NCBI GenBank assembly: GCA_030680605.1
Contig: JAUXUQ010000002.1
Span: 321,536-385,535 of the forward strand
Direction: 5' to 3'
Source of the DNA: Gammaproteobacteria bacterium
GTDB taxonomy: Bacteria; Pseudomonadota; Gammaproteobacteria; SURF-13
Length of the DNA: 64,000 bases
In this document: positions 3,615-42,728 of the stretch, piece after piece
Layout: each line of letters starts with the position of its first letter
Numbering within the stretch: the stretch's first letter is position 1
Program-made: the position numbers and the translations under genes
The notes under the pieces: model-generated
What the model was told of the DNA's origin: nothing
What the model saw: the letters and a program-made list of their open reading frames with translations, nothing else
Databases searched by the model: none

Positions 3615-4349
3615 ATGGCGGATGAACAGCTGCAGGCAGTGACACAAAGGCTATGGGTCAAGCTGATCATCGTATTGCTGTTCGTGGGCGGATTTGTATT
3701 GTTCTTTGTTGCGGGTGGCAGTGAGTGGGTGAGCCTGGAGGCGCTGAAACAGAACCGTGATCAGTTGCTGACATTTACCGGGCAGCACTACTATGCGATG
3801 TTGTTCGGGGGTATGGTGGTCTATGCGGCGTCTACCGCATTGAGTGTGCCGGGCGCGACGGTGTTGTCGCTGGCTGCGGGCTTGCTGTTCGGACGCTGGG
3901 TAGGTGCAGGGGTGATCGTGATCGCGGCGACTACAGGCGCGACGCTGGTTTTTCTGGCGGCACGCTATTTGTTTGCAGAAGCAGCGCAACGGCGTGCGGG
4001 TGGTATGGCCAAGAAGCTTATTGCGGGCTTTCATGAGAATGCGTTTAACTATCTGCTGTTTCTGCGGTTGGTGCCCTTATTCCCATTCTGGTTGGTGAAT
4101 CTGGCGCCAGCATTTACGCCTGTCAAGACGCGTACTTATGTGGCGGCTACCGCGCTGGGCATTATCCCCGGCAGCTTTGTATTTGCCCATCTCGGCCAAT
4201 CGTTGGGGCGTATCGATTCGGCACAACAGCTTGTGTCATGGGAGATACTGAGTGCCTTTGCCCTGCTCGGGCTGTTTGCGCTGTTGCCGGTGCTGGTGAA
4301 AAAGCGGCGGCAACCGTCTCCCGTGGCCAATCATGTGAGTGACAGATGA
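3615..4349 (+). CDS. TVP38/TMEM64 (VTT/DedA superfamily) membrane protein
   Basis: A 244-residue inner-membrane protein with five to six hydrophobic segments. It has the VTT/SNARE-associated signature: STALSVPGATVLSLAAGLLFG, then GATLVFLAARYLF, then LLFLRLVPLFPFWLVNLAPAF with the conserved Arg-Leu-x-Pro. Members of the superfamily act in lipid scrambling or undecaprenyl-phosphate recycling, or are of unknown function. The ATG is supported by GGGAGG about 6 bases upstream. It is divergent from the flavoprotein at 1998-3428, with which it occurs fused elsewhere, and precedes the Pit transporter and arsenosugar genes. A second VTT protein lies at 41209-41940. The substrate is not deducible. Confidence 0.85.
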   Translation: MADEQLQAVTQRLWVKLIIVLLFVGGFVLFFVAGGSEWVSLEALKQNRDQLLTFTGQHYYAMLFGGMVVYAASTALSVPGATVLSLAAGLLFGRWVGAGVIVIAATTGATLVFLAARYLFAEAAQRRAGGMAKKLIAGFHENAFNYLLFLRLVPLFPFWLVNLAPAFTPVKTRTYVAATALGIIPGSFVFAHLGQSLGRIDSAQQLVSWEILSAFALLGLFALLPVLVKKRRQPSPVANHVSDR

Positions 4350-4365
4350 CAGCATGGAGGCTTCA

Positions 4366-5448
4366 GTGGCCACAAGCATCATAGTAATTTTTATTATTCT
4401 CGCCATGGCCTGGGCCAATGGCGCCAATGACGTCTCGAAAGGTGTGGCGACATTATCGGGCTCCGGTGTCTCCAGTGCAGCGCGTGCGCTGGCATGGGGC
4501 ACGTTTTGTACGCTGTTGGGCGGACTGGCGGCGGCGGTGTGGGGTGCGGCATTGATCAATGCCTTCAGCAGTGGATTTTTGGCCGCTGATTTTCCGGTGA
4601 CGCTGGGTTTTGTGGGCGGAGTCATGACAGGTGCTGCGGTTTGGGTATTGCTGGCCACGCGCATGGGTCTGCCGGTGTCTACGACGCATGCCTTGCTGGG
4701 TGGTATTGTCGGTGCCGTGCTGGTTCTGGGAGGCCCCGAGGGCCTGCGCACTGCGGCAGTGACCAACAAGGCCTTGTTGCCATTGCTGCTGAGTCCGTTG
4801 CTGGCCATCGGGTTGTGCTGGGGCCTGTTGCTGGTGGCGCGCTATGTCGAGAAAAAAGTGCCGTCCTGGAGGCCAGGGTGCTGTGAGCAGGCAGACTGGC
4901 AGCGTAATCCGTTTGTGTGTGCCGAACCTGCGACACCCGTTCCACCACCGCTCGCGCAACGCGTGCTGACCGTGCTGCACTGGTTTTCCAGTGGCGCAAC
5001 CAGTTTTGCCCGCGGCCTCAACGATGTGCCCAAGATCGCGGCTTTCCTGATACTGACCTTGGCACTCTCACCCGGTCTGGCCCTCAGTGCGGACAATGCC
5101 GTATGGCCGATCATGGCAGTTGCCGTGGTGATGGGTATGGGCGGCTGGTGGGGTGGTATGCGCGTATTGCATGTGCTGGCACACCGTGTTTCGCCGCTCG
5201 ACTCTACCCGTGGCCTGGCCGCCAATCTGGGGACGTCGCTGCTGGTGCTTAGCGCCACTCCGCTGGGCTTGCCGGTCTCGACAACGCATGTCAGTACCGG
5301 TGCACTGATGGGTGTGCGCTGGAGCGAAGATGCCAAGCCGGCACAGCACGATGCCTTAAAGCTGGTGTTGTATGGCTGGCTGGTAACATTTCCGCTGGCA
5401 GGCGGCATGGCGGCCTCGTGTGCGTGGCTGTTTCAGAGACTGGAGTAA
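4366..5448 (+). CDS. Pit-family inorganic phosphate transporter
   Basis: A roughly 360-residue polytopic inner-membrane protein of the PiT family, which imports phosphate (and arsenate) with a cation. The N-terminal and C-terminal halves carry the repeated signature: WANGANDVSKGVATL followed by GLPVSTTHALLGGIVGA, then ARGLNDVPKIAAFLIL followed by GLPVSTTHVSTGALMG. The frame is open from a GTG at 4339 and an ATG at 4354, but the only good ribosome site, GGAGG at 4356-4360, is 5 bases before the GTG at 4366, so I take that start. Its place between a VTT protein and ArsS makes arsenate uptake, or phosphate supply under arsenate stress, a plausible role; that part is inference. Confidence 0.87.
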   Translation: MATSIIVIFIILAMAWANGANDVSKGVATLSGSGVSSAARALAWGTFCTLLGGLAAAVWGAALINAFSSGFLAADFPVTLGFVGGVMTGAAVWVLLATRMGLPVSTTHALLGGIVGAVLVLGGPEGLRTAAVTNKALLPLLLSPLLAIGLCWGLLLVARYVEKKVPSWRPGCCEQADWQRNPFVCAEPATPVPPPLAQRVLTVLHWFSSGATSFARGLNDVPKIAAFLILTLALSPGLALSADNAVWPIMAVAVVMGMGGWWGGMRVLHVLAHRVSPLDSTRGLAANLGTSLLVLSATPLGLPVSTTHVSTGALMGVRWSEDAKPAQHDALKLVLYGWLVTFPLAGGMAASCAWLFQRLE

Positions 5449-5455
5449 GACGCTT

Positions 5456-6448
5456 ATGCATGCCACACTGCCCCTGCTGGAGACCACCCACTTCCCCGCC
5501 CTGCGGCGTGGTCAGCTACAAACACTGCAAGTGAACCTCGGCTATTTGTGTAATCAGCAGTGTGTGCACTGCCATGTCAATGCAGGCCCACGGCGCACGG
5601 AAATCATGCAGCGTGAAACGATTGACTGCATCATTGATTATTTGCGCGCGGCCATCGCCCGCCCGCAGGGGGTTGCTGTGCTGGATCTCACGGGGGGCGC
5701 GCCGGAGATGAATCCGCACTTCCGGTATCTGGTGCAGGCTGCGCGTGGCCTGGACGTGCATGTCATTGATCGTTGCAATCTCACCATTCTGGAGCAGCCG
5801 GGGTATGCCGACATGGCCGAGTTTCTGGCCGCGCAGCAGGTCGAGATTACGGCTTCATTGCCGTGTTATCTGGAGGACAACGTAGACGCACAGCGTGGCA
5901 AGGGCGTCTTCGAGACCAGCCTGCGGGTGCTGCGTAACCTGAATGCGCTGGGCTATGGCCATGAGGGCAGCGGGTTGGTGCTGAATCTGGTGTACAACCC
6001 CCAGGGGCCCGTTCTGCCGCCGCCCCAGCCGCCCTTGGAGCGGGATTACAAAAAGTATCTGGGCGAGCAGCACGGCGTAGTGTTTAACCAGTTGTATACA
6101 CTGGCCAATATGCCGATACAACGCTTTGGCAGCATGCTGATTTCCAAGGGTCAGTTCGAAGATTATATGCAGTTGTTGCGGGATGCTCATCAGGACAGTA
6201 ATCTTGAGACTGTCATGTGTCGCTCGCTGATCAGCGTCGACTGGCAGGGCTATGTGTACGATTGTGATTTCAACCAGATGCTCAATCTGCCACTGCACGT
6301 CAGTGGCCAGCCACGGGTACATCTATCCCAGTTGCAAGGCATCAATCTTGAGAACCGCCCGATCGTTGTGAAAGAACATTGTTATGGCTGTACGGCAGGG
6401 CAAGGCAGCAGCTGTGGTGGCGCATTACTTAAACAGGAACCCTCATGA
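5456..6448 (+). CDS. arsS: Arsenosugar biosynthesis radical SAM protein ArsS
   Basis: A 330-residue radical SAM enzyme. The 4Fe-4S motif is CNQQCVHCHVNAGP (C32, C36, C39), followed by LDLTGGAPEMNPHFRYLV, which is characteristic of the ArsS family, and a Cys-rich C-terminus (HCYGCTAGQGSSCGG). ArsS transfers a 5'-deoxyadenosyl group to dimethylarsenic to form the precursor of oxo-arsenosugars. The ATG at 5456 follows GGAG at 5442 and directly succeeds the Pit gene stop. It overlaps the next gene, arsM, by ATGA, and these two genes are the usual core of arsenosugar loci. Two glycosyltransferases of the same proposed pathway lie 25 kb away at 32477-33801. Confidence 0.9.
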   Translation: MHATLPLLETTHFPALRRGQLQTLQVNLGYLCNQQCVHCHVNAGPRRTEIMQRETIDCIIDYLRAAIARPQGVAVLDLTGGAPEMNPHFRYLVQAARGLDVHVIDRCNLTILEQPGYADMAEFLAAQQVEITASLPCYLEDNVDAQRGKGVFETSLRVLRNLNALGYGHEGSGLVLNLVYNPQGPVLPPPQPPLERDYKKYLGEQHGVVFNQLYTLANMPIQRFGSMLISKGQFEDYMQLLRDAHQDSNLETVMCRSLISVDWQGYVYDCDFNQMLNLPLHVSGQPRVHLSQLQGINLENRPIVVKEHCYGCTAGQGSSCGGALLKQEPS

Positions 6449-7566
6449 ACACGCACGTTGACAATGTATTGGAGCGTTACTCCGAAGGCGCGAAGGAAAG
6501 ACAGGCAACATTGTGCTGTCCGGTGAGCTATGACCCGGGTCTGCTGGCGCTGCTGCCACAGGAAATTATTGAGAAGGATTATGGTTGCGGTGACCCTTCG
6601 CGTTATGTGCGTGCAGGCGACGTGGTGCTGGATCTCGGCAGTGGCGGTGGCAAGGTGTGCTATATGGCGGCGCAGGTAGCAGGTCCGGGCGGGCGCGTAC
6701 TGGGTGTGGACATGAACGACGACATGCTGGCCCTGGCGCGCAAATATCAATCCGACATGGCTGCACAGCCGGGTATGGCGTCAGTGCAGTTTCTGAAGGG
6801 CAGGATTGAGGATCTGGCGCTGGATGTGGAGGCCATGGAGCGCCAGCTTGCCGGGGACCCAGTGAGTTCCGCAACAGAGTTTGCCGCGTTCACTGCCTGG
6901 CAGGAGACACAGCGCCGCGATCGCCCGTTGATTGCCGATGGTTCAGTCGATGTCGTAATTTCAAACTGTGTGCTCAACCTAGTGGACGATGCCCGGAAGC
7001 CGCAACTGGTGCGCGAAATATTCCGGGTGCTCAAGCCGGGCGGACGGTTGGCAATCTCGGATATCGTCAGCGATGAATTCGTGCCGGAAAATATGAAAAG
7101 CGATGCCGAGTTGTGGACAGGTTGTATCTCCGGCGCATTTCAGGAGCAGGAGTTTATCAACGCCTTCGTCGAGGCGGGGTTTCTTGCCGTGCAGTATGAC
7201 AAATGGGATGCCGCCCCGTGGCAGGTTGTTGATGGCATCGAATTCCGTTCCGTGACGCTTACCGCTGTGAAAGGCGCGGGTACGGCCTGTCTCGATTATG
7301 GGCACGCTGTGATTTACCGTGGGCCCTATGCCTCGGTCACCGATGATGAGGGCCACATCTACCTGCGCGGCGAGCGGATGGCGGTATGTGAGCGCACCTA
7401 CAGGCTGTTAACGGCAGAGGGGCCTTACCGGGAGCATTTTATCGGTATTGCACCACAGCTGGCGAGCGAACCCGTACCGTGGTGTGCGCCTGTCGGTACG
7501 CGCCGCCCGGTGGCCGCTACCAAGGAGGGGCGCCATACGCAGCCGTCGGCACAGGCTTGCTGCTGA
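6445..7566 (+). CDS. arsM: Arsenite S-adenosylmethionine methyltransferase ArsM-like
   Basis: A 373-residue class I methyltransferase. The SAM site VVLDLGSGGGKVCY is at residues 60-73 and the post-motif VDVVISNCVLNLV contains C175. Cysteines C24, C25, C48 (in DYGCGDPSRYV) and C175 fit the As(III)-binding thiols of ArsM enzymes. ArsM methylates arsenite stepwise to dimethyl species, the substrate of ArsS. The C-terminal third (from about residue 265) is an extension rich in Cys and Gly, ending QACC, as in ArsM partners of ArsS. The start overlaps arsS by 4 bases, so translation is probably coupled. The gene ends 19 bases before the convergent DUF3047 gene. Confidence 0.88.
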   Translation: MNTHVDNVLERYSEGAKERQATLCCPVSYDPGLLALLPQEIIEKDYGCGDPSRYVRAGDVVLDLGSGGGKVCYMAAQVAGPGGRVLGVDMNDDMLALARKYQSDMAAQPGMASVQFLKGRIEDLALDVEAMERQLAGDPVSSATEFAAFTAWQETQRRDRPLIADGSVDVVISNCVLNLVDDARKPQLVREIFRVLKPGGRLAISDIVSDEFVPENMKSDAELWTGCISGAFQEQEFINAFVEAGFLAVQYDKWDAAPWQVVDGIEFRSVTLTAVKGAGTACLDYGHAVIYRGPYASVTDDEGHIYLRGERMAVCERTYRLLTAEGPYREHFIGIAPQLASEPVPWCAPVGTRRPVAATKEGRHTQPSAQACC

Positions 7567-31943: not shown

Positions 31944-32480
31944 TTATTTCTTGGGGCGGAAGGCGGTGAGCACGTCGGGGCGGGTCTCCAGATACGGCCC
32001 GCCAATCAAGTCAATGCAGTAAGGTACGGCGGGGAATACGGCGTGCAGACAGTCATCGATGGCGGCTGGCTTGCCGGGCAAATTGATAATGAGGCTCTTG
32101 CCGCGGATGCCTGCGATCTGGCGTGAGAGTATGGCGGTCGGCACGACCTTGAGCGACACGGCACGCATCTGCTCGCCGAAGCCATCAAGAATCTTGTCGC
32201 ACACGGCTGCCGTGGCCTCGGGTGTGATGTCGCGCGGCGCAGGGCCGGTGCCGCCGGTGGTGACGACAAGGCAGCAACCCTGGGTATCACATAAATCCTT
32301 CAGTGTTCCTTCGACGACGTCCTGTTCATCGGGAATAATGCAGGCATAGGCCTGCCACGGCGTAGCGATAATTTTTTCCAGCGCAGCGCGGATGGCGGGA
32401 CCGCTACGATCGGCATAAATACCGGTGCTGGCACGATCTGAGACGGTGATGATGCCTATCCGTGCAGGTGTGGTAGTCAT
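31944..32480 (-). CDS. mogA: Molybdopterin adenylyltransferase (MogA/MoaB family)
   Basis: A 178-residue protein of the MPT-binding fold. It has IGIITVSDRASTGIYADRSG at the N-terminus, VVTTGGTGPAPRDITPEAT as the substrate loop and SLIINLPGKPAAIDDCL near the end. It adenylates molybdopterin before molybdenum insertion. The order and length suit MogA better than MoaB, though the two are hard to separate by eye. The ATG at 32480 overlaps the upstream glycosyltransferase stop by 4 bases. psd follows after 5 bases. Confidence 0.88.
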   Translation of the reverse strand: MTTTPARIGIITVSDRASTGIYADRSGPAIRAALEKIIATPWQAYACIIPDEQDVVEGTLKDLCDTQGCCLVVTTGGTGPAPRDITPEATAAVCDKILDGFGEQMRAVSLKVVPTAILSRQIAGIRGKSLIINLPGKPAAIDDCLHAVFPAVPYCIDLIGGPYLETRPDVLTAFRPKK

Positions 32481-33115
32481 TCAGGGCTAATCTCAAGCAA
32501 CAGTTTCTGCATAAAAGGATGGGCGAGATCCTCGGGCCTGTCCACATCCCAGTGCGGCGCCAGTTCAGTAACACGCCATTGTAACTGCTGGAGACGCTCA
32601 CGTGTAAGGACAAGTACATTCGCTGTGCCCCAGGGGATATTGTCGAACAATGCGGGCGGAGCCTGTTTGAGCCCGAGCAGGACATAGCCGCCGTCCTGCG
32701 CCGGGCCAAGCACGGCGTTATAGCCGTCGCGCAGAGCGGACAGCGTGGTGGTGATGTCGTGTGCGGTGAGCAGGGGGCAGTCGCTGCCAATAATCACGGC
32801 CCGTCGGTACTCCTGCAAGGCGGCATCGAAGGCATGCACCATGCGCGCGCCGAGATCGCTGCCTTGCTGTGTGTGTAGCGTGACAGCGAAATTGCGCTGA
32901 CATTCGGCAAAGAACGGATGCGTTGTGTCCGGGGCGCACCAAAGCTGTACCGGGCAGATGTCGGCGTATACCACTGTGGTGAGTGTGTGGCGTACCAGTT
33001 GGGCATGCAAATCAGTAGCAGCGGCTGTACCGAGGGCCGGAATCAGGCGAGTCTTTACCTCACCCGCAATCGGTGCCTTGGCAAACACCAGAATGACGGC
33101 CTCAGGGAATTGCAT
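32477..33115 (-). CDS. TIGR04282-type glycosyltransferase (arsenosugar-associated)
   Basis: A 212-residue protein resembling nucleotidyl/glycosyl transferases of the DUF2064 group. The N-terminus AVILVFAKAPIAGEVKTRLI is typical. YRRAVIIGSDCPLLTAHDIT and AVLGPAQDGGYVLLGLKQAP are the nucleotide and metal loops. Models of this type are named for arsenosugar biosynthesis from co-occurrence with arsS; the activity has not been shown to my knowledge. The ATG at 33115 is 5 bases after the stop of the companion glycosyltransferase. In-frame sequence upstream overlaps that gene and is not family-like. Confidence 0.82.
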   Translation of the reverse strand: MQFPEAVILVFAKAPIAGEVKTRLIPALGTAAATDLHAQLVRHTLTTVVYADICPVQLWCAPDTTHPFFAECQRNFAVTLHTQQGSDLGARMVHAFDAALQEYRRAVIIGSDCPLLTAHDITTTLSALRDGYNAVLGPAQDGGYVLLGLKQAPPALFDNIPWGTANVLVLTRERLQQLQWRVTELAPHWDVDRPEDLAHPFMQKLLLEISPE

Positions 33116-33120
33116 GTGGA

Positions 33121-33801
33121 TTATGCGCGGTACTGTTTGGCGAGCCGGGCCGGATCTGCCCCCAGCCAATAGGCAAGACGCAGCCGCCACATGAGCAGCA
33201 CGGTGCGTATCAACCCTTGTTGTTCCCAGCGCCGGCTGGAGGTGGTCACGCGGGTACGCAGACACCGTGGGCGATCCAGTTTTTTCAGGGCGCGCGAGAG
33301 GGCAATATCCTCCATCAGCGGGATAGCGGGAAAACCTCCGACCTGCTGAAATGCGTCACGGCGGACGAAAATAGCCTGATCACCGGTCGCGATGCCGCTG
33401 AGGCGCGAGCGCCAGTTCATCAGCCACTCGATGATACGCAGTCCGATGCGGGTGCCGGAGAGGCGCACGTCAAATCGCCCCCAGCGGTGTGTTCGCAAGG
33501 CCTCAAGCAGCAAGCGGTCTGCATCGGGCGGCAGTTGCGTGTCGGCATGCAGGAAGAGCAGTATTTGACCGTGCGCCGCCTGGGCCCCGGTATTCATTTG
33601 CAGGGCGCGCCCGCAGTGGCTGTGCGTTGTCTGATCTACCCACGGTTCGGCCAGCAGGACGGTAGTATCGGTGCTGCCGCCATCCGCCAGAATGACTTCA
33701 TGCCCACGGCGGCGCAGCGGTTGCAGTGGCTGTAACGTCGCAACAATGCCACCGGCTTCGTTGAGCGTGGGTACGATAATGCTGAGGCGTATGTCGCTCA
33801 T
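33121..33801 (-). CDS. TIGR04283-type glycosyltransferase (arsenosugar-associated)
   Basis: A 226-residue GT-A, family 2-like glycosyltransferase. It has LSIIVPTLNEAGGIVATLQP, HEVILADGGSTDTTVLLAE, GQILLFLHADTQLPPDADRL (the DxD-type site is HAD), GDQAIFVRRDAFQQVGGFP and the membrane-proximal IPLMEDIALSRALKKL. Families of this type co-occur with arsS and are named for arsenosugar biosynthesis. The ATG at 33801 gives the family start. The open frame continues upstream across tRNA-Ala, where it encodes tRNA-antisense peptide and is not part of the gene. Confidence 0.83.
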   Translation of the reverse strand: MSDIRLSIIVPTLNEAGGIVATLQPLQPLRRRGHEVILADGGSTDTTVLLAEPWVDQTTHSHCGRALQMNTGAQAAHGQILLFLHADTQLPPDADRLLLEALRTHRWGRFDVRLSGTRIGLRIIEWLMNWRSRLSGIATGDQAIFVRRDAFQQVGGFPAIPLMEDIALSRALKKLDRPRCLRTRVTTSSRRWEQQGLIRTVLLMWRLRLAYWLGADPARLAKQYRA

Positions 33802-33894
33802 GGGTTTAGGGTACTTGAAGATTTCAGCGCATACCAGGAAATGGTGCACGATGGAATAGCCGGGTGGGCAATGGTACAATGCGCACGTTTCAAT

Positions 33895-33970
33895 GGGGCG
33901 GTAGCTCAGCTGGGAGAGCGCTGCGTTCGCAATGCAGAGGTCGGGAGTTCGATCCTCCTCCGCTCCACCA
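33895..33970 (+). tRNA. tRNA-Ala (anticodon CGC)
   Basis: A complete 76-base cloverleaf. The acceptor GGGGCGG pairs with CCGCTCC (one G-T) and is followed by encoded ACCA. The D arm is GCTCAGCTGGGAGAGC. The anticodon stem CTGCG/TGCAG holds loop TTCGCAA, so the anticodon is CGC, reading GCG. The T arm is CGGGAGTTCGATCCTCC. It is oriented away from the preceding glycosyltransferase. Confidence 0.96.
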
Positions 33971-35280: not shown

Positions 35281-37686
35281 TTACAAGGATGTAGTGCGAT
35301 TGATCTTGATTTCGACGATCAGTGGCAGATGGTCGGAGGCTACGCGCGCCAGCTCCGAGTCCGGGACCTCGATGTCGGTCACCTCGAAGCCGGCGTCCAC
35401 GAACACGTGATCAATGCGGGCGGCAGGGAAACGTCCAAAAAACGTGCCCCTGGGGCGGTGGCGCTTAAGCTCGATCTGCGCGTCGTTGAGTCGGTTGCGA
35501 AAACGACGGCATACCTTTGATGTCGGCAGCGCATTGAAATCGCCGCACAAGATCACTGGCCCGCGGCACTCCGTATGCGCCAGCCATTCCGGGCCCAGCA
35601 GCACCTCGACCTGCGCCTTGCGTTCGCGCGGCAGCAGACCCAGGTGAGTGTTCAGCACCTGGATTTCCGTCCCGTGTACATCAATCGCCACCCACAACGC
35701 CCCGCGCGGTTCAAGAAAGAACTGGCCGGGCAGCCCCGGCAGCGCACCCGCCTTGACCAGGCGCATGGGTAGATGGGTCAGAATGGCATCGCCGTAGCGC
35801 TCCTCCTCGAGATGCAGCGCCGGGTGGAAGTGAAAATCCATCTCCAGGCAGCGTGCGATCAGGTGGGCCTGGTCAGCGCCCTCGGTGCGCGCCCGCCCCA
35901 CGTCCAGCTCCTGCAAGGCCACGATGTCCGGCGCGTAGTGGGCAATCACGCGCGCGATACGCTCGGGCGCGAGTTTGCCATCCATGCCGATGCAACTGTG
36001 GACATTGTAGGTCATGACGCGCAGGGTCTGCGCGGTGTCCCGCCTCGGCGCCTTCGGGGACTTGATCTCGCTCCGGCCGAGGAATTGCAACGCCGCACGG
36101 CGCAGATCGGAGGGCCTGAGATAATCACGCCCGTTCGAGGCTAGCGGGATGTCCCGCGGCAGCAACGCAAAGGCGTTGGTCTCACCGGGTCCCGCCCCGC
36201 CGTGGGCGCCATTCTCGATGGCGAAGCTGTAAGCTTGGCTCCCCGCACGCCAGCCGCAGGCGATGAAATCACCGGCGTCGGGATGGTGGCACAGGGCGAT
36301 GAGGTCTTGCGTTGCCTCATCGAGAAACGGATGGCCGGTTCCAAGGATCTCGGCAGCATCCTCCGGCAGGGCGAATTCCCCGGCGTCGCTCCAGGCGCGG
36401 GCGCGCCCCGAACCGTTCTTGATCAGCACCAGCGGCGCCTTGGCCTGTTCCACCAGCGCGCGGGCAAGCTGAGCGCGCTCCGCCGCCGCCAATTCCCGCT
36501 CATAATAAATCATCGCCACCGGCCCCAGCGGCGCCACGGTCAACTGCGGAATTTCCGGTTCTTCCTCCCGGCTGGCGTGCACCGGCAACAACCGCTGGAT
36601 GCGCTTGCCGCCGAGTTGCCGCACCCGTTGCAACTGCATCCCCCATTGCCCGCTGGACCGGTAGCGGATCGGCTCGCCTTGGTGACGGGCGAAGACGTCG
36701 GCTACGGCCTCGGCGAAGCTCCGGCCATGTGCCTTGTCATAGGGTTGCGTGCGCTCCTGTCCGTGATCGGAGTAGACCCAGACATCATAGTGACGGCGGG
36801 CTGAACGGTGCGCCGCGCGCCAGATGCGGGCGATGGCGTCATCAATCCCCTTCAGGGTCCAGTGGGCGAAGCGTGAGGACGGCCCGCGCCGGTGGGCCTG
36901 TTCGTCATAGCCGAGAAAATTCAAATGGATGACCGGCAGCCCGCGCGCCACATCCATCTTCGCCCCGATGGTGGCGAGCTCGCGCAGCAGGATGGCGATC
37001 ACCACCCGGGTCGGGACAAATTTCAGCTCCTTGAGAATATCCTGGCCGGCGATCAGTCCGCGCACGAAGTCATGCAGCGCGAGCGCCAGTTCCAGCACCA
37101 GGAGCACGGCGACGCGCAGGAAACTGTAGGCGTTGCTGAAAATGAGAAAAGCCACCACCAGCGGGTTGGCCGCGCGCAGGGCCGGCCCCCAGCCGGTGGC
37201 GGCCGGGCAGAAGTGAGCTTCCGCCGCGCCGCCGGTGTAGTTGTCAACGTAGCAACTCCCGCCCTGGAGCAACGGCTCGCCGCCGTTGGTTTCAAGCTCG
37301 CGCTCGACGCGCGCGGCGGCCGCCGGTTCGAACATGCGCACCAAGCGTCCCGAGGCGCGCTCCATGAAGTTGAAGCCCGGCACGGCGCCCTTGACGCCGT
37401 AAAACAGCTCGCCCTGAAAGGCGGCCGTCGTGGCAGGCACGCCTGCGTACTGGCGGTGCAGCCGGTAGTGTTCGCGCTTGATGAGCCGGTGCAGAAAAGG
37501 CATCTCGCCCCGTTCCAGCGCGCGCTCGAGCTCGCGCTGCGAAAGTCCGTCGATCTGCAGCATGACCAGGCCGGGGGCGGTCTCGGTGCCCCTCGACAGC
37601 GGCAGCCGCAGCAGGCGCGCCAGCCATTCACTGCGGCTGAACCCGCGGCGCAAGCGCCGCACAAAGGCCTCGATACGGCCGATCAC
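35281..37686 (-). CDS. Alkaline-phosphatase-fold / EEP phosphodiesterase fusion
   Basis: An 801-residue two-domain protein. The N-terminal part (to about 545) has the metal sites of the alkaline phosphatase superfamily: LVMLQIDGLSQRELERAL, a nucleophile region YAGVPATTAAFQGELF, HLNFLGYDEQAHRRGP, DVWVYSDHGQERTQPY and ENGAHGGAGPGETNAF. A hydrophobic stretch at about residues 172-210 could anchor it in the membrane. The C-terminal part (555-801) is an endonuclease/exonuclease/phosphatase domain: MTYNVHSCIGMDG, ALQELDVGR (E593), VLNTHLGLLPRER (H681), ILCGDFNALPTS (D716, N718), RIDHVFVD and ASDHLPLIVEI (D785, H786). Both halves could cleave phosphodiesters; the substrate is unknown, and a lipid head group is plausible. 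GTG start overlapping the glycosyltransferase stop. Confidence 0.82.
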   Translation of the reverse strand: MIGRIEAFVRRLRRGFSRSEWLARLLRLPLSRGTETAPGLVMLQIDGLSQRELERALERGEMPFLHRLIKREHYRLHRQYAGVPATTAAFQGELFYGVKGAVPGFNFMERASGRLVRMFEPAAAARVERELETNGGEPLLQGGSCYVDNYTGGAAEAHFCPAATGWGPALRAANPLVVAFLIFSNAYSFLRVAVLLVLELALALHDFVRGLIAGQDILKELKFVPTRVVIAILLRELATIGAKMDVARGLPVIHLNFLGYDEQAHRRGPSSRFAHWTLKGIDDAIARIWRAAHRSARRHYDVWVYSDHGQERTQPYDKAHGRSFAEAVADVFARHQGEPIRYRSSGQWGMQLQRVRQLGGKRIQRLLPVHASREEEPEIPQLTVAPLGPVAMIYYERELAAAERAQLARALVEQAKAPLVLIKNGSGRARAWSDAGEFALPEDAAEILGTGHPFLDEATQDLIALCHHPDAGDFIACGWRAGSQAYSFAIENGAHGGAGPGETNAFALLPRDIPLASNGRDYLRPSDLRRAALQFLGRSEIKSPKAPRRDTAQTLRVMTYNVHSCIGMDGKLAPERIARVIAHYAPDIVALQELDVGRARTEGADQAHLIARCLEMDFHFHPALHLEEERYGDAILTHLPMRLVKAGALPGLPGQFFLEPRGALWVAIDVHGTEIQVLNTHLGLLPRERKAQVEVLLGPEWLAHTECRGPVILCGDFNALPTSKVCRRFRNRLNDAQIELKRHRPRGTFFGRFPAARIDHVFVDAGFEVTDIEVPDSELARVASDHLPLIVEIKINRTTSL

Positions 37687-38972
37687 TTAAGGCCCTGATC
37701 CTGCGCTTCCGGCCCGCCGAATGCGGCGACGGCGGCGCCCGCCAACCCCTTGAGGATGGCCCATTCGGCCTCGATGAGATGCAGCACGTGTTCCCACTGC
37801 GCGTCTTCTTCCGTGCGCTCGACCAGGACCCGCGCGCGCAATGCCTCGTAGCAGCCCAGGGCCGTGGCCGCCGAGCGCGGCATGGAGAAGTCTTCGGCGG
37901 TCGCAACGGCGCTCTGCTTGAGTTGCCGGCGTCCTTCCTCGGGCAGTTGCGCGACCCATTGCAGCGCCACGCGGAAGGCTTCGATGCTTTCCTCATGGAG
38001 CAGCCGTCCATTGTGCCTGTCCTTGACCACTTCCCGCACGCCGGGTGCATCCAGACCCACCACCGGCATGCCCGCAGCCATGGCTTCGGTCAGCACCATG
38101 CCCTGGGTCTCGCTCCTGGAGGCGAAGGCGAAGACGTCCATGGCGTGGTAGGCAGCGGCCAATTGCGCAGGATCGAGGATACCCGCCACGTGCAGGCGCG
38201 CGCTCAGGCCCACGCGCTCGAATATCGCCCGGATGTCCGCCTCCGACGGACCCTTGCCCACCAGCAGGAAATGGGCGCGGGGCTCCGTCTTGAGAAAGGC
38301 GGCCACCGCCTCGGCCAGAAACACCAGATTCTTCTCCGGCGCCAGCCGCCCCAGGTGTCCCACCACGAAGACGTCATCGGGAATGCCCATCCTCCTGCGG
38401 AAGCCCGCTGCATCCCCTTGCGCGAAACGCTCCAGGTTCACGCCGGTGGGCACCACCGCGATGGGCGCCTCGACCCCGCGCTCGCGCAGCAAGGTAGCAA
38501 TGCTTTCGCTGGGGGCGAACACCTGGTCGCACAGGTTGGCGTAGCGGGTGGCCAGCTCGATCACGAAGCGCCGCAAGGCCGGCGAGTCGCCCGGCACGTA
38601 GTGGGTGTACTGCTCGTACAGGGTGTGATGGGTGAAGACCAGCGGCAACTCGCGGTAGCGTGCCACGCGCAGCGCCGTCATACCGAGGAGATAAGGATGA
38701 TGGGAATGCACAATGTCGGGCCGGAAGGCATCAAGGGCCTCGGTGAGCAGGCCCGATACCGGCAGCACGGCGGAGAAGTCGCTGCCGTTGAAGTTCTGGA
38801 TGGCCGGGATGCGCACCACATCGGCTTCGTCCCGCGGCATGTCGTCGAACGCCGGCGCCACCACCAGTACGCGGTGGCCGCAGCGCCGGTACTCGGCGGT
38901 GAAAGCCTCCACCGAGCGCGCCACCCCGCCCACGTGCGGCGTGTAGGTATTGGTCAGCATGACAATATTCAT
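37683..38972 (-). CDS. GT4 glycosyltransferase, diacylglycerol-glucosyltransferase-like
   Basis: A 429-residue GT-B, family 4 enzyme. The N-terminus is MNIVMLTNTYTPHVGGVARS; DIVHSHHPYLLGMTALRVAR follows, then VFTHHTLYEQYTHYVP at residues 112-127, which resembles the motif of bacterial 1,2-diacylglycerol 3-glucosyltransferases. The C-terminal half has VVGHLGRLAPEKNLVFLAEA, FLLVGKGPSEADIR and the nucleotide-sugar site SRSETQGMVLTEAMAAGMP (E-x7-E). A long C-terminal tail (from about residue 365) is extra. The ATG at 38972 overlaps the upstream gene by ATGA. Glycosylation of a lipid is my inference; sucrose- or trehalose-type acceptors are not excluded. Confidence 0.8.
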   Translation of the reverse strand: MNIVMLTNTYTPHVGGVARSVEAFTAEYRRCGHRVLVVAPAFDDMPRDEADVVRIPAIQNFNGSDFSAVLPVSGLLTEALDAFRPDIVHSHHPYLLGMTALRVARYRELPLVFTHHTLYEQYTHYVPGDSPALRRFVIELATRYANLCDQVFAPSESIATLLRERGVEAPIAVVPTGVNLERFAQGDAAGFRRRMGIPDDVFVVGHLGRLAPEKNLVFLAEAVAAFLKTEPRAHFLLVGKGPSEADIRAIFERVGLSARLHVAGILDPAQLAAAYHAMDVFAFASRSETQGMVLTEAMAAGMPVVGLDAPGVREVVKDRHNGRLLHEESIEAFRVALQWVAQLPEEGRRQLKQSAVATAEDFSMPRSAATALGCYEALRARVLVERTEEDAQWEHVLHLIEAEWAILKGLAGAAVAAFGGPEAQDQGLK

Positions 38973-41221
38973 ATCTTTTCCTGCACCAGCTCCACGGATG
39001 CCGCGCCCGGCTGGGCGGCGACGGGCCGGAAGCCGGGCAGACGCACCTCGATGGCCGGCGCCGCGCCATGCCAGGCGCCGTGCCAGGCGACGGTCACGCG
39101 CCCGGTGTCTGCATTGCGCTCGACGCTGATCGAGACCGGGCCGAAGGCCGTCGGCGCGGGGCCGAACGTCAGCAGCGCCGCGCCCGCGAGCCAGCGCGCC
39201 GGCACGCCCTGGCACAGGATCAGACTTTCATCCTCCTCACGCACGAAACAATGGCGCAGCATCAGCACCCACTCCGCCGCCGCCCACACATGCTGGCCGT
39301 CACCCATGCAGCCGCCGCGGGTGCGCGGGTGTATCGCCTCGGGCCACTGGCCGGTGGGCGAGGCCAGCGCCGCGACCGCGTCCATCAGCGCCAGGTAGCG
39401 GGGGTCGCCTGCGCGCAGCAGCACCTGAGCCAGGTGCAGGGTCAGGTAAGGGTTGATGCCGGAGTGAATCATGTCCTGGAAAAACCCGCCCTCAACCAGG
39501 CAGTGCTCCAGCAGGAACTCGACCGTATCGAGCAGGCGCGAGTCATCCGGCGCACAGAGTTGCGCCGGGTAGCCCACGGCCAGCGAGCCGATGGCCCCGG
39601 CATCCAGCCTGCGGTAGGGCGAGGCCGGCATGGCGGGCCGGCCGAGGCGCTTGGCTACCCCGGCGAGACTGCGTTCGACGGCCTGCTGAAATTCCCCGGC
39701 GGCATGCGTAAACTCCGCGCGCAAGGCCTCCTCGTCCGTGAGGCCGCACAGCGCCGCCGCCGAATGCAGTCCGGCGATGCTCCAGAAATCGTCCCAGTAA
39801 TAATAGTCATTGGGGCCGAGGTGCTCGGCGGAAAAGCCCGCCGGCAACAGACCGGCGTGGGGGCTGACTGGCTCATCCGGCAGACGCTTGCGCAGAATCC
39901 AGTGCGCGCCCTGCACGATGGCCTCCCGCCACGCCGGTTTGGGTGCGCGACCGGTGAGTTCGCAGTAGCGGCGCATGATCCACAGCGCCTCGCCGTTGGC
40001 GTCCCACTCCCCCTCCTGGGAATGAAAATAGCCGCGCGCGGTCTGGCGCGACGGAAAGCGATCCAGCGCGCGCTCGGCACGCCCGCTTAAACCGGCGCAC
40101 AACAGGCCATGAATGATGAACGCGGCATCGCGGAACCAGAACCGCTTGTAGGTATACGGGCCGGGATACACGTCATCGGGCGAGTGCAGAATCAGCGTGC
40201 GCAATGCCGCATCGTACAGGCACTGAAAATGCGCATCGGGAACAGATAGTTGGCAGTGACCGCGCAGGCTTTCCTCCCAGGTAGTCTCGGCAACCTGCGC
40301 AGTCTTGTGGGCATCCCCCAGCGGCACGCTGACCCCGATGGTGCGCGGCTGGCCGGGTTCCAGCCTGAACAGCGCCGCCGCCGTGGACATGCCCACCTCG
40401 CACGCGCCGCGCTGCTGATCCTCAAGATCCTGCAGATGGATGTATACATCGCCGGCCCGGTAGTCCGAGACATGATGCCGTTCCGCCGGGGCGTCGAACT
40501 CGACGGCGCGCTGGCCCTCGATGTTCCAGGCACTGCGTTCGGGTGACAGGGCCACATCATGGATGAAGCTGATCCCTTCCGGGTTATAGGGCCGCAGCGC
40601 CAGCACCAGCCAGCCCGCGCTGTCCGCCTTGGCAGTCAGTGCCAGCCGGCAGACCGGCTGACCGGATGCCAATTCGACCGAAGCGCGGCTGGTCAGCTCA
40701 AGCCCCATCTCGCGGCTTGTCGTGATGACGACCACCCCGTCGCGCAGGTCGAGGCGCTGCTCGGCATTGGTGCGCGAGGGCAACAACCAGCGCCCGTCGT
40801 CGGTCTTGATCCAGCCTTCCAGCGACCAGCCGTCGAACAGCGGCGTGAGCAAACCGCGCGGGTCAACAATGGGCAGCTCCGGGCAATCGGGCCAGCCGAC
40901 GGCGGTCCAGTTGCGGTGGGTGAGATTGACATGGGTGATGGAAAACGCGCGCGGGATGAAGGCGTCGTCGCCGGGGTCGAACTGGCGTTCGACCCAGTAG
41001 GGCCACACCCAGTCCAGGTTGTGCTGAATCACCCGGCTGTTGATAAGGCCACGGGCGTGGAACACCACTCCGGCACGCAGCAGTTCCACCGGCTCGCCTA
41101 CCTCGGACGGCTGGGCGAAGCGGTGCAGACGCGAGAGCACGCTCATCGGGTCGAGGAAGCCGTGGGCGCGCGCCAATCGGCGAATCAAAAATCGCCACGG
41201 CAGCCATTTCAGCCACGGCAT
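38969..41221 (-). CDS. Six-hairpin glycosidase-like / glycogen-debranching-type protein
   Basis: A 750-residue protein. The N-terminal ~300 residues form beta-rich sequence (SREMGLELTSRASVELASG, GDVYIHLQDLEDQQRGACEV). An alpha/alpha toroid follows, of the amylo-1,6-glucosidase or six-hairpin glycosidase kind: GPYTYKRFWFRDAAFIIHGL, YFHSQEGEWDANGEALWIMR, YYYWDDFWSIAGLHSAAAL, GGFFQDMIHSGINPYLTLHL and TGQWPEAIHPRTRGGCMGDG. Acidic residues in FRDA, WDANGEA and WPEA are candidate catalytic groups. No signal peptide is seen. AGGAG precedes the ATG, which overlaps the VTT gene by 13 bases. The sugar substrate is not deducible. Confidence 0.75.
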   Translation of the reverse strand: MPWLKWLPWRFLIRRLARAHGFLDPMSVLSRLHRFAQPSEVGEPVELLRAGVVFHARGLINSRVIQHNLDWVWPYWVERQFDPGDDAFIPRAFSITHVNLTHRNWTAVGWPDCPELPIVDPRGLLTPLFDGWSLEGWIKTDDGRWLLPSRTNAEQRLDLRDGVVVITTSREMGLELTSRASVELASGQPVCRLALTAKADSAGWLVLALRPYNPEGISFIHDVALSPERSAWNIEGQRAVEFDAPAERHHVSDYRAGDVYIHLQDLEDQQRGACEVGMSTAAALFRLEPGQPRTIGVSVPLGDAHKTAQVAETTWEESLRGHCQLSVPDAHFQCLYDAALRTLILHSPDDVYPGPYTYKRFWFRDAAFIIHGLLCAGLSGRAERALDRFPSRQTARGYFHSQEGEWDANGEALWIMRRYCELTGRAPKPAWREAIVQGAHWILRKRLPDEPVSPHAGLLPAGFSAEHLGPNDYYYWDDFWSIAGLHSAAALCGLTDEEALRAEFTHAAGEFQQAVERSLAGVAKRLGRPAMPASPYRRLDAGAIGSLAVGYPAQLCAPDDSRLLDTVEFLLEHCLVEGGFFQDMIHSGINPYLTLHLAQVLLRAGDPRYLALMDAVAALASPTGQWPEAIHPRTRGGCMGDGQHVWAAAEWVLMLRHCFVREEDESLILCQGVPARWLAGAALLTFGPAPTAFGPVSISVERNADTGRVTVAWHGAWHGAAPAIEVRLPGFRPVAAQPGAASVELVQEKI

Positions 41222-41940
41222 GAGCTGTCTCCTGTTTCCTCTTGCGCTGTGTATTTTGCCAAGGCCCGGCGTGCCAGACGGCTAATATAGATCAACAGGG
41301 CGATGGTCACGAGAAAACCGGCGCCGTAGAGAGTCCATTGCAGCGGCGTGCGTTCCGCGCTGCGTGCGCCCAGGGTGGCGATGTCGGCGGCGATCGAGCC
41401 GAGATATACATTGTGCAGCGAGAACGGGATGATACCGGCGAAGGTCCCGAAGGTAAAACCGCGCAGCGAAAAGCGCGTCAGCCCGAAGAAGTAATTGGAG
41501 AGCTTGAAGGGAAAGAACGGCACCAGCCGGGTGAGCAGGATGATCTTCCAGCCCTGCGGCGTCAGTTCCTCGCTCACCAGTTGCAGCCTGGCGTGCATCA
41601 GGATAAACCCCGTGGCACGCTCACCGAACAGGTGCCGCGCAATCAGGAAGGCGAGCGTCGCGCCCAGGGTGGTGCCGAGCACCACGTACACCGTACCTTC
41701 CACCACGCCGAACACGAACCCGGCCCCGGTGGTGAACAGCACCCCCGGCAGCAGCAGTACCACCACCAGCGCCATGATGAGAATAAACAGCAGCGGCGCC
41801 CACGCGCCCTGCGCGTCCAGCCATGCCAGCAACTGGAGCACCTGCTGATGGGTGTCGAAATAAATCAGCGCACCGACGACAGCGGCCACAAACAGGACGC
41901 TGACGGCGATGCTCCAGACTGGCGATGCTCCCCGGATCAT
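41209..41940 (-). CDS. VTT-domain (TVP38/DedA superfamily) membrane protein
   Basis: A 243-residue inner-membrane protein with an N-terminal transmembrane helix (WSIAVSVLFVAAVVGALIYF) and a VTT core: LVVVLLLPGVLFTTGAGFVF, TLGATLAFLIARHLFGERAT, then IILLTRLVPFFPFKLSNYFF and GTFAGIIPFSLHNVYLGS. The Arg-Leu-x-Pro and GxxxG features of scramblase-like members are present. It is the first gene of the four-gene run down to 35281, so lipid or polyprenyl-phosphate movement linked to the glycosyltransferase is a reasonable guess. It is a paralogue of the protein at 3615-4349. Confidence 0.83.
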   Translation of the reverse strand: MIRGASPVWSIAVSVLFVAAVVGALIYFDTHQQVLQLLAWLDAQGAWAPLLFILIMALVVVLLLPGVLFTTGAGFVFGVVEGTVYVVLGTTLGATLAFLIARHLFGERATGFILMHARLQLVSEELTPQGWKIILLTRLVPFFPFKLSNYFFGLTRFSLRGFTFGTFAGIIPFSLHNVYLGSIAADIATLGARSAERTPLQWTLYGAGFLVTIALLIYISRLARRALAKYTAQEETGDSSCRG

Positions 41941-42053
41941 GGTATTCCTCAGTCTAATACCTCATGCCTGCTGTAACTGGTTGGCCAACTCCCTGAGTTA
42001 GTTGACGGTTTTGGCATACGGCCAGGTGCAGGGTGCGGATTATGGTTGCCGGA

Positions 42054-42728
42054 CTAACGATACGTACCTGGAATCACTACACGCCTCTCAATAATGCGTG
42101 CAGCTACTACGATTATTGAAACCAGCGCGAGATAGATTAAAGCCGCAAACAAGTAGGCCTTGAAAAACTGAAAGTTGGTTGAGGCGAGCTCTTGAATTCT
42201 GGCAAAAAACTCGGTGTACTGGACAAGAAATGCTACAGAGCTATCTTTCAGGTTGCGAATGACTTGATTGGTTAACGCAGGTATCGATAGTCGCAATACT
42301 TGCGGCAAGGTAATCAACCCGAATATCTGGCGGGGATTAAAGCCCTGCGCTCTTGCGGCCTCGAGCTCGCTGGCATCGAGGCCATGAAATGCTGTGGTGA
42401 GATAAGCTGCATTATAGGCGGCGATATTGAGTGAAAACCCAATAATTGCCACCACAAAAGGAGACATGGTTACCCCCCACTGTGGCAAGCCATAGTACAT
42501 CAGGAACAGCAGTACAATCAGTGGAATTCCAATGAAAAATGAGACATATCCATTGATTAAATGGCGGATAAGGGGGTTTTTGCTCAACGTGAAATAGAAG
42601 ACCACAATGCCAAGTAACAGGCCGGTAACGCTAACAATGCCCGTAAGTGCTAGAGTCTTGCCCAGGCCGGCAAGAATCAGCGGCATTTGCTCTAGCAGGT
42701 CATTCTGAAATGCAGCCCATCCATCCAT
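42054..42728 (-). CDS. Polar amino-acid ABC transporter permease
   Basis: A 224-residue inner-membrane permease of the HisM/HisQ family. It has about five hydrophobic helices, GYVSFFIGIPLIVLLFLMYY, and the EAA loop LEAARAQGFNPRQIFGLITL that contacts the ATPase. It belongs to an import system with a second permease (43494), an ATPase (42740) and a lipoprotein binding protein (44162), all on the minus strand. Base composition is clearly more AT-rich than both flanks. The transported amino acid is not deducible. Confidence 0.87.
   Translation of the reverse strand: MDGWAAFQNDLLEQMPLILAGLGKTLALTGIVSVTGLLLGIVVFYFTLSKNPLIRHLINGYVSFFIGIPLIVLLFLMYYGLPQWGVTMSPFVVAIIGFSLNIAAYNAAYLTTAFHGLDASELEAARAQGFNPRQIFGLITLPQVLRLSIPALTNQVIRNLKDSSVAFLVQYTEFFARIQELASTNFQFFKAYLFAALIYLALVSIIVVAARIIERRVVIPGTYR

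Follow-up and report, generated by a model that had tools for sequence, protein, structure and literature searches.

A conserved, apparently undescribed four-gene cassette with a GH15-like glycosidase and a GT4 glycosyltransferase, and its possible role in membrane glycolipid turnover

Four overlapping genes of a Gammaproteobacteria bacterium form a cassette that is real, widely shared and apparently undescribed. In this order, they encode a VTT-domain membrane protein, a glycosidase of six-hairpin fold, a GT4 glycosyltransferase, and a fusion of an alkaline-phosphatase-superfamily (ALP) phosphodiesterase with an EEP phosphoesterase; a literature search for this four-gene combination found no description of it. 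Our preferred reading, to which we assign a probability of roughly 0.4, is that the cassette serves both to build and to turn over a glycolipid, alpha-glucosyl or closely related, on the cytoplasmic side of the inner membrane.

The window, by which we mean the whole stretch of DNA analysed, is 64,000 nucleotides long. An earlier note made from its sequence had placed the four genes on the minus strand in this order, with overlaps of 13, 4 and 4 bases, and this layout proved exact in coordinates, strand and order (Table 1): the VTT and glycosidase genes share positions 41209-41221, the glycosidase and GT4 genes 38969-38972, and the GT4 and phosphodiesterase genes 37683-37686. The GT4 gene starts with ATG at 38972 and the phosphodiesterase gene with GTG at 37686; a longer mechanical GT4 reading frame reaching 39215 is an upstream extension and not the gene start. 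An amino-acid ABC transporter is encoded upstream on this strand, and its permease gene (42054-42728) ends 113 bases ahead of the VTT gene; a convergent gene for a DHH-type pyrophosphatase lies downstream. The gap behind the permease gene is the sole non-coding room for a promoter of the cassette's own, and a scan of it found neither a consensus promoter nor a Pho box. Promoter- and terminator-like matches inside the cassette genes were rejected as chance occurrences in GC-rich coding sequence, and a search for tandem repeats in the cassette region returned none. Elsewhere in the window, overlapping arsenosugar genes on the plus strand (3615-7566) encode a VTT protein, a Pit-type transporter, ArsS (TIGR04167) and ArsM as one unit, and arsenosugar glycosyltransferases of families TIGR04282 and TIGR04283 are encoded on the minus strand at 32477-33930, 25 kb from that unit.

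Table 1. Positions of the cassette genes and the upstream gap in the window
Feature	Position	Strand	Length and basis
VTT-domain membrane protein, first gene of the cassette	41209..41940	-	243 aa; PF09335
GH15-like six-hairpin glycosidase	38969..41221	-	750 aa; structure model, without Pfam/NCBIfam family
GT4 glycosyltransferase, Agt/MGS-like	37683..38972	-	429 aa; Pfam, motif, tree
ALP-superfamily phosphodiesterase + EEP phosphoesterase fusion	35281..37686	-	801 aa; PF01663 + PF03372
Gap between ABC permease gene and cassette	41941..42053	-	113 bases

A scan of contigs representing one genome per species with the glycosidase gave at least 535 related stretches, of which the closest 80 were kept and analysed by tblastn with all four proteins and by clustering of open reading frames; as these loci were picked by glycosidase similarity, settings without a glycosidase are under-sampled. 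The VTT-glycosidase-GT4-phosphodiesterase order is found on one strand at 40 of the 80 loci, and the complete set in this order is present at 38 of the 66 loci that have enough flank on both sides, with median gaps between matches of 0, 10 and 62 bases. Only one of the 80 (L014) has another full gene order, the phosphodiesterase fusion having moved to the front. The cassette occurs in classes that include Gamma- and Betaproteobacteria, Hydrogenophilia, Desulfobacteria, Desulfuromonadia and Desulfobulbia, with 50-87% identity to the window proteins across these groups; isolated MAG contigs assigned to Halobacteria or Myxococcia are also present and may be mis-binned. Rheinheimera pacifica is one culturable host with all four genes. 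The earlier note had proposed looking for the four families in the same order in other genomes, and had named a restriction to close relatives as a result that would refute its proposal; the order is kept far beyond close relatives. The genes flanking the cassette vary between groups and no neighbour cluster beyond the four recurs, so that the four genes are a self-contained unit. The pairwise divergences of the four proteins are correlated (Pearson 0.78-0.86), and none of the three enzymes varies in its catalytic residues. The glycosidase is present in only 5 of 299 sampled genomes of the phylum; thus the cassette is scattered, not universal.

Parts of the cassette are missing or rearranged at some loci. 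Marinobacter and Saccharospirillum have the VTT and glycosidase genes only, and their genomes have no phosphodiesterase match at E ≤ 1e-20; at the same threshold, the genomes of loci L007, L025, L042 and L058 have the glycosidase and GT4 and lack a phosphodiesterase match. At three loci (L066, L068 and L070) the EEP half has a gene of its own ahead of the VTT gene, still adjoining the cassette. These loss patterns indicate that the VTT protein and the glycosidase are the most durable pair and that the phosphodiesterase is an optional part.

Of the four parts, the glycosidase, which has no name in the family libraries, is of greatest interest. It has no family match in Pfam or NCBIfam, and the Pfam GH15 model (PF00723) gave no match to the window protein and weak matches below its cut-off to 4 of 48 orthologues (best E 0.019). 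The six-hairpin fold that had been proposed from the sequence is borne out by an AlphaFold2 model (me8a7a2efdae3; mean pLDDT 79, pTM 0.85), for which VIA gave dextran dextrinase (Z 32.7 over 530 residues), a bacterial glucoamylase (Z 29.8 over 525) and a glucodextranase (Z 29.7 over 529), and the assignment can be refined to a GH15-like protein. A profile alignment to dextran dextrinase, which is weak alone (E 0.1), puts W362, R364 and D365 on W540, R542 and D543, and D477 on E671 (the chain numbering of dextran dextrinase is offset by 19). In that enzyme, E671 is the acid catalyst, and the glucose unit is bound through O4/O6 and its ring face by W540, R542 and D543 (PMC12446779). At the aligned acid position the window protein has Asp477, where GH15 has Glu, and E628, which is invariant among orthologues, is from its position the probable catalytic base. 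Together, these five residues would form a GH15-like, glucose-type pocket, and we read the protein as a predicted exo-acting alpha-glucosidase or transglucosidase. A signal peptide is not evident, and the first helix, at the N-terminus, is rich in W, K and R, which suggests that the protein is cytoplasmic and membrane-bound; residues 28-80, though conserved, have low confidence in the model. Our literature search brought up no cytoplasmic glycosidase of this type with known activity on glycolipids.

The third protein belongs to GT4 by its Pfam domains (Glyco_transf_4, E 1e-36; Glycos_transf_1, E 3e-32) and its EX7E motif, in which E288 and E296 are invariant. Its best NCBIfam models are lipid transferases, all scoring under their curated cut-offs: the alpha-monoglucosyl-DAG synthase (MGS) model NF049988 gave 136.7 bits against a cut-off of 400, and the GlcNAc-PG synthase model 123 bits. 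A motif of the window protein, THHTLYEQYTHYVPG, is similar in form in PlcP-linked GT4s, and the form HT-x-x-E-x-Y was seen in all GT4 relatives examined apart from the second GT4 of locus L146, which is more distant. Outside the cassette, a PlcP-like phosphoesterase gene adjoins or lies near GT4 relatives at five loci (L146, L147, L148, L150 and L153), a DAG kinase gene adjoins them at L149 and at L148, which thus has both, and a VTT gene adjoins three (including L144), two of which are phosphoesterase fusions. At L146 (3815-7021), the PlcP-like gene stands between two GT4 genes whose products share 35% and 28% identity with the window GT4. GT4s paired with PlcP yield glucosyl- or glucuronosyl-DAG (PMC4796936, PMC8528852, PMC8231724). 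The PlcP-like, DAG kinase and VTT genes that adjoin its relatives favour a lipid acceptor for the window GT4 and are the best, though indirect, evidence for one. The GT4 tree has three clades, i.e. the cassette GT4s, those linked to PlcP or DAG kinase, and the fusions, although the outgroup branch is long.

In the fusions, GT4 is joined to a calcineurin-type phosphoesterase region that in L117 is unrecognised by Pfam. They have an N-terminal membrane helix, come from Marinobacter-like genomes (L115:5046-8338, L117:4024-6934 and L151:5610-8542) and adjoin VTT or LPG_synthase_TM genes; possibly they are another lipid-glycosylation unit. The idea that the Marinobacter fusion substitutes for the missing GT4 and phosphodiesterase is weakened, as the fusion is also present in a congener without the glycosidase gene (G123) and in another family (G103).

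The first protein is a member of the VTT/DedA superfamily (PF09335: 85.4 bits against a cut-off of 33.9, E 5.8e-24) with hydrophobic stretches, and its orthologues are 50-84% identical. The window's own genome has a further VTT protein (G000:C2:30784-31155), within a 692-residue open frame. VTT/DedA proteins include C55-P flippases (PMC12893004), which lends something to a reading in which GT4 would load glucose onto polyprenyl phosphate, the VTT protein would be an undecaprenyl-phosphate flippase, and the glycosidase and phosphoesterases would trim or recycle the carrier for envelope-glycan modification; the survival of the VTT protein and the glycosidase as the tightest pair in Marinobacter would fit such recycling of lipid-linked sugar. 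We nevertheless consider this unlikely, given that the VTT protein falls far under the cut-off of the UptA undecaprenyl-phosphate transporter model NF052604 (23.4 of 250 bits), that the neighbourhood offers no recurring cluster beyond the four genes, and that the GT4 relatives accompany PlcP-like and DAG kinase genes.

Less probable again is a soluble alpha-glucoside (an osmolyte or glucan) made and broken by the GT4 and the GH15-like enzyme, with the VTT protein and the phosphodiesterase otherwise employed on the same transcript. GH15 enzymes do act on soluble glucans, and the GT4 family is broad, including glycogen-type and thiol glycosyltransferases, but the VTT-glycosidase pair that survives alone ties the glycosidase to a membrane protein, and the neighbours of the GT4 relatives are of lipid type.

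Both halves of the fourth protein are assigned by Pfam and by conserved residues. The ALP half (about residues 36-540) matches PF01663 (41.1 bits against a cut-off of 23, E 2e-10) and has the invariant ligands D45, T86, D260, H264, D306, H307 and H494 of an NPP-type phosphodiesterase; the EEP half (about 550-796) matches PF03372 (83.8 bits against 24.5, E 2e-23), with N560, E592, H680, D715, N717, D784 and H785 invariant. In the model (m09d6fa6ea8f1), the ALP part is NPP-like (ENPP5, Z 21.8 over 327 residues) and the EEP part resembles 4ruw (Z 30.8) and neutral sphingomyelinase (Z 25.1); the Foldseek PDB list is filled by the EEP half, and the ALP half is visible in VIA only. A hydrophobic helical insertion at about 166-247 would suit membrane contact. 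Other proteobacteria have stand-alone relatives of the EEP half (L119:4586-6825 and L121:2542-4056; E down to 1e-101), and the nearest of them adjoin phospholipase-D-type genes.

The earlier note had assigned the four genes to envelope glycolipid remodelling, and a glycolipid role remains the best reading of this conserved unit. It is favoured by the conserved order amid varying flanks, the correlated divergence, the glycosidase pocket, the lipid-type neighbours and models of GT4, the likeness of EEP to sphingomyelinases, and the split EEP gene that stays beside the cassette. From these observations we infer the substrates, directions and locations of all the reactions. GT4 would glycosylate a membrane lipid, most likely diacylglycerol, with a nucleotide sugar as donor; the ALP/EEP protein may hydrolyse lipid head-group phosphodiesters, supplying the acceptor or clearing the pathway; the GH15-like enzyme could remove or transfer terminal alpha-glucose, making glycosylation adjustable or reversible; and the VTT protein may move the lipid between leaflets. 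The phosphodiesterase is absent from several genomes with the glycosidase and GT4, and Marinobacter has the VTT protein and glycosidase only, so the full scheme is not needed everywhere. Doubtful, in our judgement, is a reversible lipid-glycosylation cycle inside the cell, in which a dedicated cytoplasmic alpha-glucosidase of a new GH15-like family would strip the sugar from a glycolipid made by its operon partner, GT4, alongside a scramblase and an ALP/EEP lipid phosphodiesterase with two active halves.

The phosphate-saving part of the earlier proposal is not supported. A scan for the Pho-box consensus upstream of 54 VTT genes gave a mean best score of 9.07, against 8.80 for shuffled sequences, i.e. 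nothing above chance. Of the cassette genomes tested, about half also have a PlcP-like gene, which rules out mutual exclusion of the two, and the L061 genome holds both the cassette and a PlcP-GT4 pair; the cassette is thus not a simple PlcP/Agt stand-in. Relatedness of GT4 to PlcP-linked GT4s and the lack of a PlcP-like match in the window's own genome at E ≤ 1e-15 notwithstanding, a system in which ALP/EEP replaces PlcP and GT4 acts as Agt, exchanging phospholipids for glycolipids in phosphate starvation, is improbable on these grounds and would leave the glucosidase unexplained.

Knowledge of bacterial glycolipid synthesis in lipid remodelling comes mainly from the PlcP/Agt pair, and we know of no described bacterial enzyme for the regulated removal of lipid sugars. 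By adding a glucosidase and a VTT protein, a conserved cassette would be a sign of such removal. It would also assign a role to a glycosidase family left unnamed by Pfam and NCBIfam, and it places a VTT/DedA protein in a concrete lipid setting.

Each known system that we compared shares part of this arrangement. The E. coli ybhP-clsB-ybhN operon likewise encodes an EEP protein (YbhP) with a lipid enzyme and a multi-pass membrane protein (YbhN); it has no GT4, glycosidase or ALP domain, and has cardiolipin synthase instead. This operon is named in PMC9241728. The GH15 glucoamylases, glucodextranases and dextran dextrinase share with the window glycosidase an N-terminal beta domain, an (alpha/alpha)6 barrel and, by alignment, the W, R and D of subsite -1, together with the probable positions of the acid (D477) and the base (E628), whereas the window protein is 12-18% identical to them, goes unrecognised by the Pfam GH15 model, has Asp in place of the Glu acid and no apparent signal peptide, and has its own conserved N-terminal ~100 residues. 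The Marinobacter-type metallophosphatase-GT4 fusion also joins a phosphoesterase to a related GT4 beside a membrane protein of lipid-flipping type (LPG_synthase_TM or VTT), but its phosphoesterase is of another class, its GT4 falls in a separate clade, and it occurs with or without the glycosidase gene. Finally, the PlcP/Agt system (PMC4796936, PMC8528852) similarly has a phosphoesterase gene with a GT4 of DAG-glycosyltransferase type, and GT4s beside PlcP-like genes are 28-36% identical to the window GT4. The earlier note had held that this set is different from PlcP/Agt. The cassette differs in that no Pho box was found for it, its GT4 lies in a separate clade, the phosphoesterase gene adjoining GT4 encodes an ALP/EEP fusion where PlcP is of calcineurin type, and a GH15-like glycosidase and a VTT protein are added.
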